Shown: piece after piece, positions 123 to 16,104 of the stretch | Position numbering within the stretch: the stretch's first letter is position 1 | How the letters are laid out: each line of letters opens with the position of its first letter | Source of the DNA: a bacterium | GTDB taxonomy: Bacteria; AUK180 | Direction: 5' to 3' | Length of the DNA stretch: 16,953 nucleotides | Assembly: GCA_030622125.1 (NCBI GenBank) | Contig: JAUXGM010000035.1 | Location: 1-16,953 of the forward strand | Program-made: the position numbers and the translations under genes | The notes under the pieces: generated by a model | Database searches by the model: none | What the model was told of the DNA's origin: nothing | The model's input: only the letters and a program-made list of their open reading frames with translations

Positions 123-893
123 TTAAATTGTTCTAACAAAATCGGGAAAAAGTTCTACCCTTTTTGAATCATTCGGATTTATCAGAAATACTTCTATTTC
201 TTTCCGAAGTTTTTTTAGATCAATCTTTTCACATTTTTTTAATAACATTGATTTTAATGAACTATCGTTTTCTATTTCATTCGTGATTTTAAGATACCCA
301 TATTCCGGTCTTGTAAATGAAAACATATAAATAATATCATAAATATCTCTGGCTTTGGCTCTTTTTCTATTTAGAAAAGCAGATATTTTTTGTGATAGGA
401 GTATATTTTGAGGAACTATATAAATTCTTGTCAAAATTGCGAATTTATTCAAAAGGTAATTGTCGGCTACATAATTATATGGCTGACTTTCAGCATCAAG
501 CTGTATTGTTATTTTTTCCTTTTCATATCCCGATAGATTGTAATTAAAAAGAAGTTTGGGGAATCTTATATAACATCTGAAGGCTTTTTTAGATACAATT
601 TTCATTTCTGTGATAAACCCTTCCAATCTAAGTTCAGCTCGCACTATTTCAGTCAATTTGTTGAATTCATCAGGGGAAAGGTCTCTACTGTCAAAATCAA
701 CATCTTCGGAAAATCTTTGCGAATTATGAACTATTCGTATTGCCGAGCCACCCATAAAAACAACCCTGTTTGCGAATTTGCTACTAAAAATAATATCAAG
801 TATCTTGTATTGAAGATATTCTCTTAAAAGCTGCCTTTTATAAATATACATATTTTCAGGGTAGAACTTTGCTATTTCATTAATATTAAGCAT
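123..893 (-). CDS. AbiEii/AbiGii-family nucleotidyltransferase toxin
   Basis: This is the toxin half of a type IV (AbiE) toxin-antitoxin pair, 256 aa. The family belongs to the DNA polymerase beta-like nucleotidyltransferase superfamily; studied members inhibit growth by modifying RNA, including tRNA, and some act in phage defence by abortive infection. Visible motifs are GGSAIR (residues 48-53), RFSEDVDFD (60-68) with metal-binding Asp64 and Asp66, a third acidic position in the IQLD strand (Asp133), and the C-terminal basic motif with Lys169 and a KARDIYD block (180-186). All four blocks are present and the length is normal, so the toxin looks intact. The start overlaps the end of the antitoxin gene by 8 bp (886-893), suggesting translational coupling. 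The actual target cannot be told from sequence. Confidence 0.9.
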   Translation of the reverse strand: MLNINEIAKFYPENMYIYKRQLLREYLQYKILDIIFSSKFANRVVFMGGSAIRIVHNSQRFSEDVDFDSRDLSPDEFNKLTEIVRAELRLEGFITEMKIVSKKAFRCYIRFPKLLFNYNLSGYEKEKITIQLDAESQPYNYVADNYLLNKFAILTRIYIVPQNILLSQKISAFLNRKRAKARDIYDIIYMFSFTRPEYGYLKITNEIENDSSLKSMLLKKCEKIDLKKLRKEIEVFLINPNDSKRVELFPDFVRTI

Positions 894-1503
894 TATTCAT
901 CTCCTCTATTAAATAATCAACACATCTACCTACTCTTTGATTGGTAATTATTTTTGTATAATTTCTTAAAATGTCAATATTTATTAAATTTTTAAATACA
1001 TCTGAATTTATCCTTATTCCGATAATGTCCTCTCTGTCCTTGACATCGGAATGAAAATAAAAATAATCAATCAAAGTTTTTTCCGGAGAAGCAATCTTCC
1101 AATATATATTCCCATTCTTTTCTATGTTATATCCAAAGAAATAATTTTCCAATATCTTTCGATAATAAAAATTTCCTATCTGTGTTTTAAATGTCACTGT
1201 TTTTCTCGTTGATACGGACAAAATAGAGTATGATTGGTCGGGAATAAGATCATAGTAGTTCAATGCGGTCTCAAGAGAAATATATGAATGCCTATATATC
1301 TTATTTGCAATTTCATAAAGTAGATTTTCATTTAATTCAAGGTCGGAAAAGATATAGTATCCATTATGGATTTTAATGATATAACCCTTATTTTGCCATT
1401 CGTAAAGGCGTCTCGAATCGAAATTGGGTTCAATCTTATGAATCTCCGTAAGATTGAACACCAACATCTTTTGTAAGTTGTTTCTAAACTCTATATACTT
1501 CAT
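886..1503 (-). CDS. AbiEi-family antitoxin (winged-helix DNA-binding)
   Basis: A 205-aa protein encoded immediately before the AbiEii toxin gene in the normal antitoxin-first order. An N-terminal winged-helix region is visible (about residues 15-52), with the characteristic RRLYEWQNKGYIIKIHNGYY stretch. A C-terminal antitoxin domain follows, including SLETALNYYDLIP and the SPEKTLIDY block (about residues 139-147) typical of AbiEi-like proteins. AbiEi antitoxins bind inverted repeats in their own promoter and repress the operon; they counteract the toxin without stable complex formation (type IV). The ATG is preceded by an AGAGAA-like weak ribosome binding site and a plausible promoter at 1523-1551. 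There is no sign of truncation. Confidence 0.85.
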   Translation of the reverse strand: MKYIEFRNNLQKMLVFNLTEIHKIEPNFDSRRLYEWQNKGYIIKIHNGYYIFSDLELNENLLYEIANKIYRHSYISLETALNYYDLIPDQSYSILSVSTRKTVTFKTQIGNFYYRKILENYFFGYNIEKNGNIYWKIASPEKTLIDYFYFHSDVKDREDIIGIRINSDVFKNLINIDILRNYTKIITNQRVGRCVDYLIEEMNNA

Positions 1504-14451: not shown

Positions 14452-14481
14452 ATTACACTTTTTTCAGTCTTCTCCGTTCAA
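14452..14481 (-). promoter_or_regulatory. Weak candidate internal promoter before the GT4-like gene
   Basis: On the minus strand, TTGAAC (14481-14476), an 18-bp spacer and TGTAAT (14457-14452) lie in the end of the GGDEF-PilZ gene. The predicted start is within a few bases of the ATG at 14443, which would explain the missing ribosome binding site by a leaderless mRNA. AT-rich sequence makes chance matches common. Confidence 0.25.
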
Positions 14482-15588
14482 TATATATTTTTCTATAACT
14501 TTCTTTATACTTTTCACCTCCGCATCGGTGATCTTGATGAAATCAATACCCATTTCAAACATGTTTTCAGCAATTTTTTCAATTCGCGTAACCTTTCCGA
14601 TACCATTGATCCTTTTTTCTTCATTAGGAAATCTAAATGAAAATTCCATTGACATATCTACACCGATAGGTGTATCACTCAGGAATAATATTCCTGTTTC
14701 AGAGAAATTTATTCCTTCCGTGAAGATAAAATCCTTTGTCCCTTTAAGTCTATACAAAAATTCAAATGTATAAGGTAATCGAAAATATCTTCTCCTCTCT
14801 TTTAAATAAGTTTTGATCTTACCCTTCCCATCCTTTTTCGCTTGATAAAGTGCAATATCGGCATGTTCTAACATTTCCCGTATTGAAAAACTATCCATTT
14901 TATAAGAAGACATTCCGCAAGAAACGGTAACCTTTAACCTTTTTTTGATCATATTTTGTAATCTCTTGATAAGTATAAGTGTTCCATTAATATCGGTTTC
15001 AGGAACAAGTAATATAAATTCATCGCTTCTATATCTAAATAAAAAATCAGCGGTTCTAATATAATCCTGGATGATCTGAGCAACCTCTTTTAATACCTTA
15101 TCTCCTGCAAGATGCCCTTTTTTCTCATTGATCATCTTAAAATTATCTATATCAATTAAAACCATTGTCAGGTATTTTTTATATCTATGGGCACGATCTA
15201 CTTCTAATTTGATTATTTTTTCAAAGAAATTGCGGTTATATACCTTTGTTAAATGGTCATGTATCACACTATTTTTAAGATTGCTATATGTTAAATAATC
15301 CAAGATAAAGGGGTGAACAATCTCTTTTTTTACCTCGATAAAGTAGTAAAGTATAATGATGCTTAGATTTATCTCGGAATCAAATTTTTTCTTAAAGTTA
15401 GCAACAAGGTCAATGATATTACTCCAATCCTCAATTGCTGTTTCTGCATTTTTCCCTATACCGACAAAAAGGTTCAAGGCTTCAATATAAAATTTTTCAT
15501 CGTCCATCTCTTTTAATGATTCTGTAAAAAATTTATTAATAGCTTTGTTTTTTTGTAACAGTCCCATAATTTTTTTTCTTAGCTTCAT
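14464..15588 (-). CDS. Degenerate GGDEF plus PilZ protein, likely cyclic-di-GMP receptor
   Basis: A 374-aa soluble protein. Residues 1-100 form an unrecognised helical region. A GGDEF domain spans about 103-262: it begins with DHLTKVYNR (111-119) and has the metal-binding LIDIDNFK segment and GHLAGDKVL, but the active-site loop reads R187-S-D-E-F191, so both glycines are lost. The inhibitory I-site RTAD (178-181) is intact at the normal five-residue spacing. A C-terminal PilZ domain (about 264-370) keeps both cyclic-di-GMP-binding motifs, RRYFR (266-270, RxxxR) and NFSETG (294-299, NxSxxG). The protein is therefore more likely a receptor with up to two cyclic-di-GMP sites than a cyclase. GAGG lies 6 bases before the ATG. 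It is the first gene of the five-gene minus-strand group, so may control or sense for it. Confidence 0.9.
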   Translation of the reverse strand: MKLRKKIMGLLQKNKAINKFFTESLKEMDDEKFYIEALNLFVGIGKNAETAIEDWSNIIDLVANFKKKFDSEINLSIIILYYFIEVKKEIVHPFILDYLTYSNLKNSVIHDHLTKVYNRNFFEKIIKLEVDRAHRYKKYLTMVLIDIDNFKMINEKKGHLAGDKVLKEVAQIIQDYIRTADFLFRYRSDEFILLVPETDINGTLILIKRLQNMIKKRLKVTVSCGMSSYKMDSFSIREMLEHADIALYQAKKDGKGKIKTYLKERRRYFRLPYTFEFLYRLKGTKDFIFTEGINFSETGILFLSDTPIGVDMSMEFSFRFPNEEKRINGIGKVTRIEKIAENMFEMGIDFIKITDAEVKSIKKVIEKYILNGED

Positions 15589-15605: not shown

Positions 15606-15633
15606 ATTATAATAATTTTTTGTTTTTTTTCAA
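15606..15633 (-). promoter_or_regulatory. Candidate promoter for the five-gene minus-strand operon
   Basis: On the minus strand, TTGAAA (15633-15628) is followed by a 16-bp spacer and TATAAT (15611-15606). The leader would be only about 11 bases but would still include the GAGG ribosome binding site (15598-15595). Confidence 0.5.
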
Positions 15634-15676: not shown

Positions 15677-15717
15677 AAAAAGAAAAAAAATATAAAACTC
15701 CGTACCCCATAAAAAGA

Positions 15718-15762
15718 GGGACATACCTCATCAAACTGATTTTTTTTGTTGAGATGTGTCCC
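15718..15762. repeat. Imperfect palindrome with GGGACA / TGTCCC ends (REP-like)
   Basis: GGGACATACCTCATCAA (15718-15734) faces TTGAGATGTGTCCC (15749-15762) across a T-rich loop. The six terminal bases pair perfectly, then pairing continues with one mismatch and small bulges. Flanking AAGA and TCTT can extend the stem past a GGAC bulge. It is flanked by AT-rich sequence and is not followed by the T tract expected of a terminator in either direction. Its form suits a REP-type or IS200-like palindromic element; no transposase gene is nearby. Confidence 0.5.
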
Positions 15763-15861
15763 GGACTCTTCATTAGATAACAATAGACCACCCGAAAACA
15801 ATATAACCAAGGGAAAAGAAAAAAATTTATTGAAAATAGAAAAATTTTTAGAATCTACCTT

Positions 15862-15990
15862 TAAATTTTCAGTATAAGTGATTTTATTAAATCACTTTCT
15901 ATTAAATCTTTTCTATAAAGTAGAAAATTAATTTTCTAATAATTTAAAAGATTTAGAATAATGAAATTTCATTTCATAACTGAAAATTTA
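15862..15990. repeat. Four-armed nested inverted-repeat structure, AT-rich
   Basis: A perfect 12-bp outer inverted repeat, TAAATTTTCAGT (15862-15873) and ACTGAAAATTTA (15979-15990), encloses three further self-complementary elements: AAGTGATTT/AAATCACTT with a 4-base loop (15876-15897); TAAATCTTTT/AAAAGATTTA (15903-15912 with 15946-15955), itself enclosing an 18-bp perfect palindrome TAGAAAATTAATTTTCTA (15921-15938); and the 14-bp palindrome AATGAAATTTCATT (15960-15973). Gaps between arms are only 2-5 bases. Folded, it forms a cloverleaf-like four-way junction. There is no long ORF. Confidence 0.6.
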
Positions 15991-16001
15991 GAAATCTTAA
16001 A

Positions 16002-16026
16002 AATCCGTATAATCCGTTAAATCCGT
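16002..16026 (+). repeat. Three AATCCGT units at exact 9-bp spacing
   Basis: AATCCGT occurs at 16002-16008, 16011-16017 and 16020-16026, separated by AT and TA. The third copy runs into GGTT. It lies about 50 bp upstream of the pilin -35 box. Too short for a CRISPR unit. Confidence 0.6.
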
Positions 16027-16075
16027 GGTTAAAGAAATCTTATTTCGTAAAAAACTAAAAATTTATTCAAAAGAG

Positions 16076-16104
16076 TTGACAAAAGATAAAAAAAAATATA
16101 TAAT
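16076..16104 (+). promoter_or_regulatory. Consensus sigma-70 promoter of the pilin gene
   Basis: TTGACA (16076-16081), exactly 17 bp, TATAAT (16099-16104): both boxes are perfect. The spacer is almost all A/T. An AAAATTTATTCAAAA tract upstream could act as an UP element. High constitutive transcription is expected. Confidence 0.85.

Follow-up and report, generated by a model that had tools for sequence, protein, structure and literature searches.

A three-armed, cloverleaf-like cassette of an AUK180 genome as a probable MITE-like module of a composite intergenic repeat

Results

Genes and features of the locus

The window, that is the whole stretch of 16,953 nucleotides that was analysed, carries a gene for a GGDEF-PilZ protein (14464-15588) that is divergent from the genes for a pilin and a prepilin peptidase, and a cassette of 129 nt (15862-15990) lies in the space between them. 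Each side has a predicted sigma70 promoter outside the repeat: TTGAAA-16-TATAAT at 15606-15633 on the minus strand for the GGDEF-PilZ gene, and TTGACA-17-TATAAT at 16076-16104 on the plus strand for the pilin gene. As both predicted promoters point away from the cassette, it would be left out of the two transcripts. No site resembling a terminator was detected at the cassette. No tRNA or tmRNA was found in the window. At the other end of the window (123-1503), a 205-aa protein with no Pfam match is encoded ahead of an AbiEii-type nucleotidyltransferase (PF08843), in the same direction, and may be its antitoxin partner.

Anatomy and folding of the cassette

The cassette is closed by a perfect outer stem of 12 bp, formed between TAAATTTTCAGT (15862-15873) and ACTGAAAATTTA (15979-15990) as read on the plus strand, and this stem encloses three arms. 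Arm 1 (15876-15897) is a simple hairpin with a perfect 9-bp stem (15876-15884/15889-15897) and a loop of 4 nt. Arm 2 (15903-15955) is a two-tier hairpin in which a 10-bp stem (15903-15912/15946-15955) surrounds the 18-bp palindrome TAGAAAATTAATTTTCTA (15921-15938). Arm 3 (15960-15977; ATGAAATTTCATTTCAT) is a simple hairpin that contains the 14-bp palindrome AATGAAATTTCATT (15960-15973), over which the minimum free energy (MFE) fold favours the overlapping pairing 15961-15967/15971-15977. All elements of the nest of inverted repeats described in the first-pass annotation are therefore present, and the MFE structure of 15862-15990 is exactly this nest of an outer stem and three arms.

As RNA, the plus strand folds at -32.1 kcal/mol, compared with -14.05 +/- 2.71 for dinucleotide shuffles (z -6.7; none of 200 as good), the minus strand has a z of -5.7 and folding with DNA parameters gives a z of -7.1. 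The cassette is 85% AT; nevertheless, none of 104 non-repeat background windows of the same length and with a GC content of 20% or less, taken from the same genome, reached -24 kcal/mol, the lowest being -23.3. The strength of the fold relative to both the shuffles and this AT-rich background indicates that AT-richness does not explain the cassette, in agreement with the first-pass view that composition alone would be a poor explanation. Six of seven type-1 copies that were folded (type 1 being the kind found in the window) have z values of -4.2 to -6.8 on both strands and the seventh has -4.6 and -2.9, and the complete copies of this genome adopt the three-armed fold or a near variant.

Copy number and distribution

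A search of the genome to which the window belongs (2.08 Mb in 192 contigs) returned 74 matching pieces, among them 13 complete cassettes and others cut by contig ends; the number of copies is estimated at about 25. The type-1 copies of this genome are 85-100% identical and occupy unlinked loci. Many contigs begin or end within the cassette, and as the genome is a MAG that often breaks inside it, some junctions and orientations may be assembly errors. A covariance model identified four complete, diverged copies in JAGGYO01, an AUK180 MAG from a different genus within the same family, and none in three further genomes of the family (G001, G003, G004) or in two of the same class (G005, G006). 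A first search of 60 genomes gave clear copies in JAGGYO01 only, and a scan of 84,980 GTDB species genomes for the pattern of the outer-stem pair had this MAG as its sole match. The outer-stem pattern returned nothing from IMG/VR, and a strict core-palindrome pattern had no matches in GTDB genome contigs.

Conserved pairing and compensatory change

Across 17 distinct copies in a model-based alignment, 97.6% of stem cells are paired, and 10 stem pairs carry two-sided compensatory changes with pairing kept, compared with 1.6 in shuffles; because the structure guided this alignment, the pair counts are biased in its favour. Sliding the partner by 1-3 columns as a control lowers pairing to 38-56%, and 6 two-sided compensatory pairs are seen even when 16 copies are aligned with plain MAFFT. 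Such changes affect five of the nine pairs of arm 1. In the JAGGYO01 copies, the arm-2 palindrome TAGAAAAT/ATTTTCTA has become TGGAAAAT/ATTTTCCA on contig C307 and GAAAAC/GTTTTC on C260, and the outer stem AATTTTC/GAAAATT has become AACTTTC/GAAAGTT on C307. Cells with G.U (7) and with the complementary A.C (4) are both few and similar in number, and selection on one RNA strand is consequently not clearly indicated. Palindrome correction, through template switching at replication, could be a non-selective alternative source of compensatory changes. The three findings that the first-pass annotation had named as counting against its claim, namely shuffled sequences that fold equally well, a lack of homologues and a lack of covarying pairs, are each contradicted by these data.

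A larger composite repeat

The borders given in the first-pass annotation, 15862-15990, delimit the cassette correctly but fall short of the full repeat, as homology among copies extends over about 15820-15861 and 15991-16057. The composite is bounded by iterated, imperfect inverted ends of 31 bp (TTAACCACRGATTNNACRGATTNNACRGATT), of which there are 62 in the genome and none for a reversed control pattern. In the window, the A-side flank module (15820-15861) has lost its A-type end TTAACCAC, whereas on the other side a G-type iterated end TTAACCACGGATTTAACGGATTATACGGATT (16002-16032, minus strand) is followed by the outermost module AGAAATCTTATTTCGTAAAAAACTA (16033-16057), which stops shortly before the pilin promoter. 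At about 15820 the A-side flank gives way to a second repeat family (GGGACATACCTCA...TGAGATGTGTCCC), seen also in the interior of such a composite on C115. This adjoining family (GGGACATACCTCA...TGAGATGTGTCCCGG..., 15700-15815) is frequent between genes of the same genome, has similar sequence in JAGGYO01 and is joined to cassette fragments at two loci (L064 and L070).

Complete composites with a type-1 cassette alone consist of a G-type end, the cassette and an A-type end, and measure 231-250 nt in most complete cases; both ends of the C122 composite are A-type, and the C43 composite folds into a long stem that contains the cassette (z -7.8). Between like ends the interior varies, and may hold the type-1 cassette in either orientation, a second cassette, both, or other repeats. 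Ends of like kind adjoin the cassettes on C260 and C307 of JAGGYO01. Iterated ends of the ACCACRGATT type occur in 10 of 386 genomes searched, scattered (G100, G177, G189 and G315 among them) and often in several to many copies, and in G100 they are present too as bare end-to-end inverted pairs, palindromes of about 62 bp. A literature search with the literal strings of these ends gave no match.

Orientation and a sister cassette

Going inwards from 16 distinct G-type ends, the first arm met is arm 1 in 10 cases and arm 3 in 6; from 12 A-type ends it is arm 1 in 5 cases and arm 3 in 7. The same G-flank, GGATTTCAAAGTCTTT, adjoins both orientations of the cassette (L003 as against L045 and L076). 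Either the cassette flips within inverted repeats of 12-18 bp or it inserted more than once, and assembly error is possible at some loci.

A sister cassette of about 150 nt is present at the A-side flank on C62, C82, C8, C109 and C124, and in part on C25 (loci L155, L061, L151, L146, L148 and L154). It has no significant similarity to the type-1 cassette (18 of 200 shuffles score as high, and BLAST matches are short or weak and AT-rich). It nevertheless folds (z -7.8 to -8.8) on the type-1 plan, with a two-tier hairpin and two simple ones inside an outer stem, but has the arms in a different order. It is placed within a palindromic AATAAATTTATT-like site of the same composite, which it splits at the centre, and an empty locus (L009) and a filled one (L038) with the common flank AAAGATTAATCTCAAATATTTTTCTGT represent paralogous sites for it. 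Among five genomes searched it was found in that of the window alone.

Gene context and promoters

The cassette and its composites are intergenic in all contexts read. Gene starts are divergent around them in the window and on C14, C43, C80, C122 and C115, genes are in tandem on C57, C82 and C160 and convergent on C184, some copies are found at gene ends (C184, C170, C91), and no rule relates cassette orientation to the genes. The outermost module (TTATTTCGCAAAAAACTA and variants) stops about 4-20 nt (about 40 nt for a longer variant) before the -35 box of a sigma70 promoter; in the window a perfect -35 starts 19 nt past it. A sigma70 promoter matching at least 10 of 12 positions lies within 90 nt of 23 of the 40 distinct outer-module ends, compared with 3.0 in shuffles, although most ends face gene starts and the shuffles are blind to that. 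This is a pattern of placement and not proof of targeting, for which targeted insertion, survival bias and a role in expression are options. The genes for the pilin and prepilin peptidase also form a conserved pair in G001, G003 and G004, genomes in which the cassette was not found and the upstream neighbour of the pair differs, and regulation by the cassette that is specific to the pilin was rejected on these grounds.

Candidate mobilisers

The presence of DDE_Tnp_1 transposases coincides with that of the cassette in the five genomes of the family: there are three each in the genome of the window and in JAGGYO01, and none in the other three. As mobilisers they were nevertheless rejected at all three loci of the window's genome, where the ends are unrelated to those of the cassette or composite or none can be read. 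On C65 (L233:2076-4031) the transposase, of 576 aa, belongs to an IS1182-family element with the ends GACCATxCTGCAA, one end of which is about 12 nt beyond a cassette copy and merely adjacent to it; on C45 the ends, CAATGTCxGTGAATTAAG, are unlike those of the cassette or composite, and on C144 no ends were found. Y1/RAYT-like genes, which each of seven searched genomes of the class contains, were also rejected, as the four in the window's genome have no repeat copies beside them. With no rve transposases in this genome, a mobiliser was not found among the DDE_Tnp_1, Y1/RAYT-like and rve families searched.

Discussion

The cloverleaf is probably a non-autonomous, DNA-level, MITE-like module of a composite, BOX-like intergenic repeat that spreads or once spread. 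Of the three readings put forward in the first-pass annotation, a small non-autonomous mobile element is the one that is supported, by the number of copies, their two orientations, their intergenic placement, their nesting and their presence in a second genus; the support comes from anatomy and distribution and is not proof by movement. Terminal inverted repeats are present as the perfect 12-bp outer stem and the imperfect 31-bp composite ends, and the repeat is small, non-coding, dispersed and multi-copy (129 nt, or 231-250 nt as a composite; about 25 copies). No clean target-site duplication could be read, the flanks being AT-rich and the cassette nested in repeats, and the same holds for the filled and empty pair of the sister cassette. 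Given that the DDE_Tnp_1 and Y1 loci examined have no ends in common between an IS and the repeat, it is termed MITE-like and not a proven MITE. Conserved outer modules surround variable inner ones as in BOX, a likeness of plan for which no common descent is claimed.

It is suggested that the cassette would spread mostly as the core of the larger composite with its iterated inverted-repeat ends, and that copies would arise by transposition in trans. The mobilising enzyme, or a replication-coupled process, may see a folded single strand or cruciform beyond the ends alone, since the inner arms are kept paired though a classical DDE transposase would not need them. Insertion or survival just upstream of promoters may be favoured. 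To our knowledge, recognition of folded DNA is well argued for only a few systems, namely IS200/IS605, REPINs and integron attC, and the maintenance of paired inner arms by compensatory change in a transposon-like repeat suggests recognition of this kind here. Furthermore, two dissimilar cassettes with one plan in the same nests raise the possibility that it is the shape as such that is copied and moved, as a class of structure-recognised, single-strand cloverleaf elements with their own mobiliser that can flip, or enter in either orientation, and settle beside promoters; this stronger proposal is rather unlikely to be correct.

A cis element used by the host, whether a cruciform, a protein-binding site or an upstream activating or insulating element, is an improbable primary explanation. 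It draws on the 23 of 40 outer-module ends with a nearby promoter and on the 19-nt distance in the window; however, the promoter-proximal part is the outer module and not the cloverleaf, the ends mostly face gene starts in any case, the pilin-peptidase pair is retained by relatives that lack the cassette and have another upstream neighbour, and copies occur at gene ends too. The cruciform or protein-binding site of the first-pass annotation may be a property or a later use of the element. Equally improbable is a self-made palindrome, whose hairpins template switching and slippage would have produced and perfected at inverted repeats rich in AT, and which recombination would have copied without any transposase. 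Short repeats do often carry chimeric joins (L064, L070, L062), and the sister cassette splits a palindromic site at its centre; but such a process alone leaves about 25 dispersed copies with fixed borders and 85-100% identity unexplained, and the same cassette lies beside like iterated ends in another genus.

A structured non-coding RNA or a 5' or 3' UTR element kept for its RNA fold, also among the first-pass readings, would fit the strong fold and the compensatory changes but is very improbable. The whole window has no Rfam match at gathering scores, the complementary strand and the DNA fold well too, and the cassette occurs in divergent, tandem and convergent settings and in both orientations with no rule relative to the genes. 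At the window locus, where the cassette is upstream of both outward promoters and has no terminator-like site, an RNA role is unlikely. Finally, the AT content and the many contigs that end inside the repeat might suggest that AT-rich DNA folds by chance here or that the assembly is at fault; for the cassette itself this is refuted by its copies within the genome, by the shuffles and background windows, none of which reached its energy, and by its presence in a separate public record, the MAG of the other genus.

The repeats fill much of the space before many of the promoters seen here, which has a bearing on gene regulation and on the poor assembly of such genomes. In GTDB, AUK180 stands for the phylum Candidatus Uvuciota, the source of which is deep-sea hydrothermal sediments (PMC11382960). 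Both orientations of one cassette together with a sister of like plan constitute a natural experiment in this small candidate phylum, to which the genome of the window presumably belongs.

Known systems resemble the repeat in part. REPINs and REP sequences with RAYT (Y1) are likewise hairpin-forming extragenic DNA with compensatory changes and proposed single-strand intermediates (PMC3116915, PMC3733652), and the genome of the window has Y1/RAYT-like genes; in contrast, the present cassette has 129 nt and three arms, no copies flank a RAYT-like gene, and there is no conserved GTAG/CGTC tag, as the GTAG that opens the arm-2 palindrome is not conserved in the JAGGYO01 copies. QMITE2 of Coxiella, Nezha and the Correia elements are similarly non-coding, about 100-250 bp in length, with terminal inverted repeats and many copies in AT-rich intergenic sites (PMC10969869; PMC3049150), whereas here no matching IS was found in the host among the transposase families searched, no target-site duplication is clear and inner arms are paired besides the ends. 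The BOX, RUP and SPRITE repeats of Streptococcus pneumoniae are also short, intergenic, strongly folding repeats that cluster and insert into one another, and pneumococcal BOX is a composite with variable inner modules between outer modules (PMC3049150; PMC10969869). Comparing the plan and not the sequence, the repeat described here differs from them in its three arms within a perfect outer stem, its two orientations, its iterated 9-nt ends and its occurrence in another phylum.
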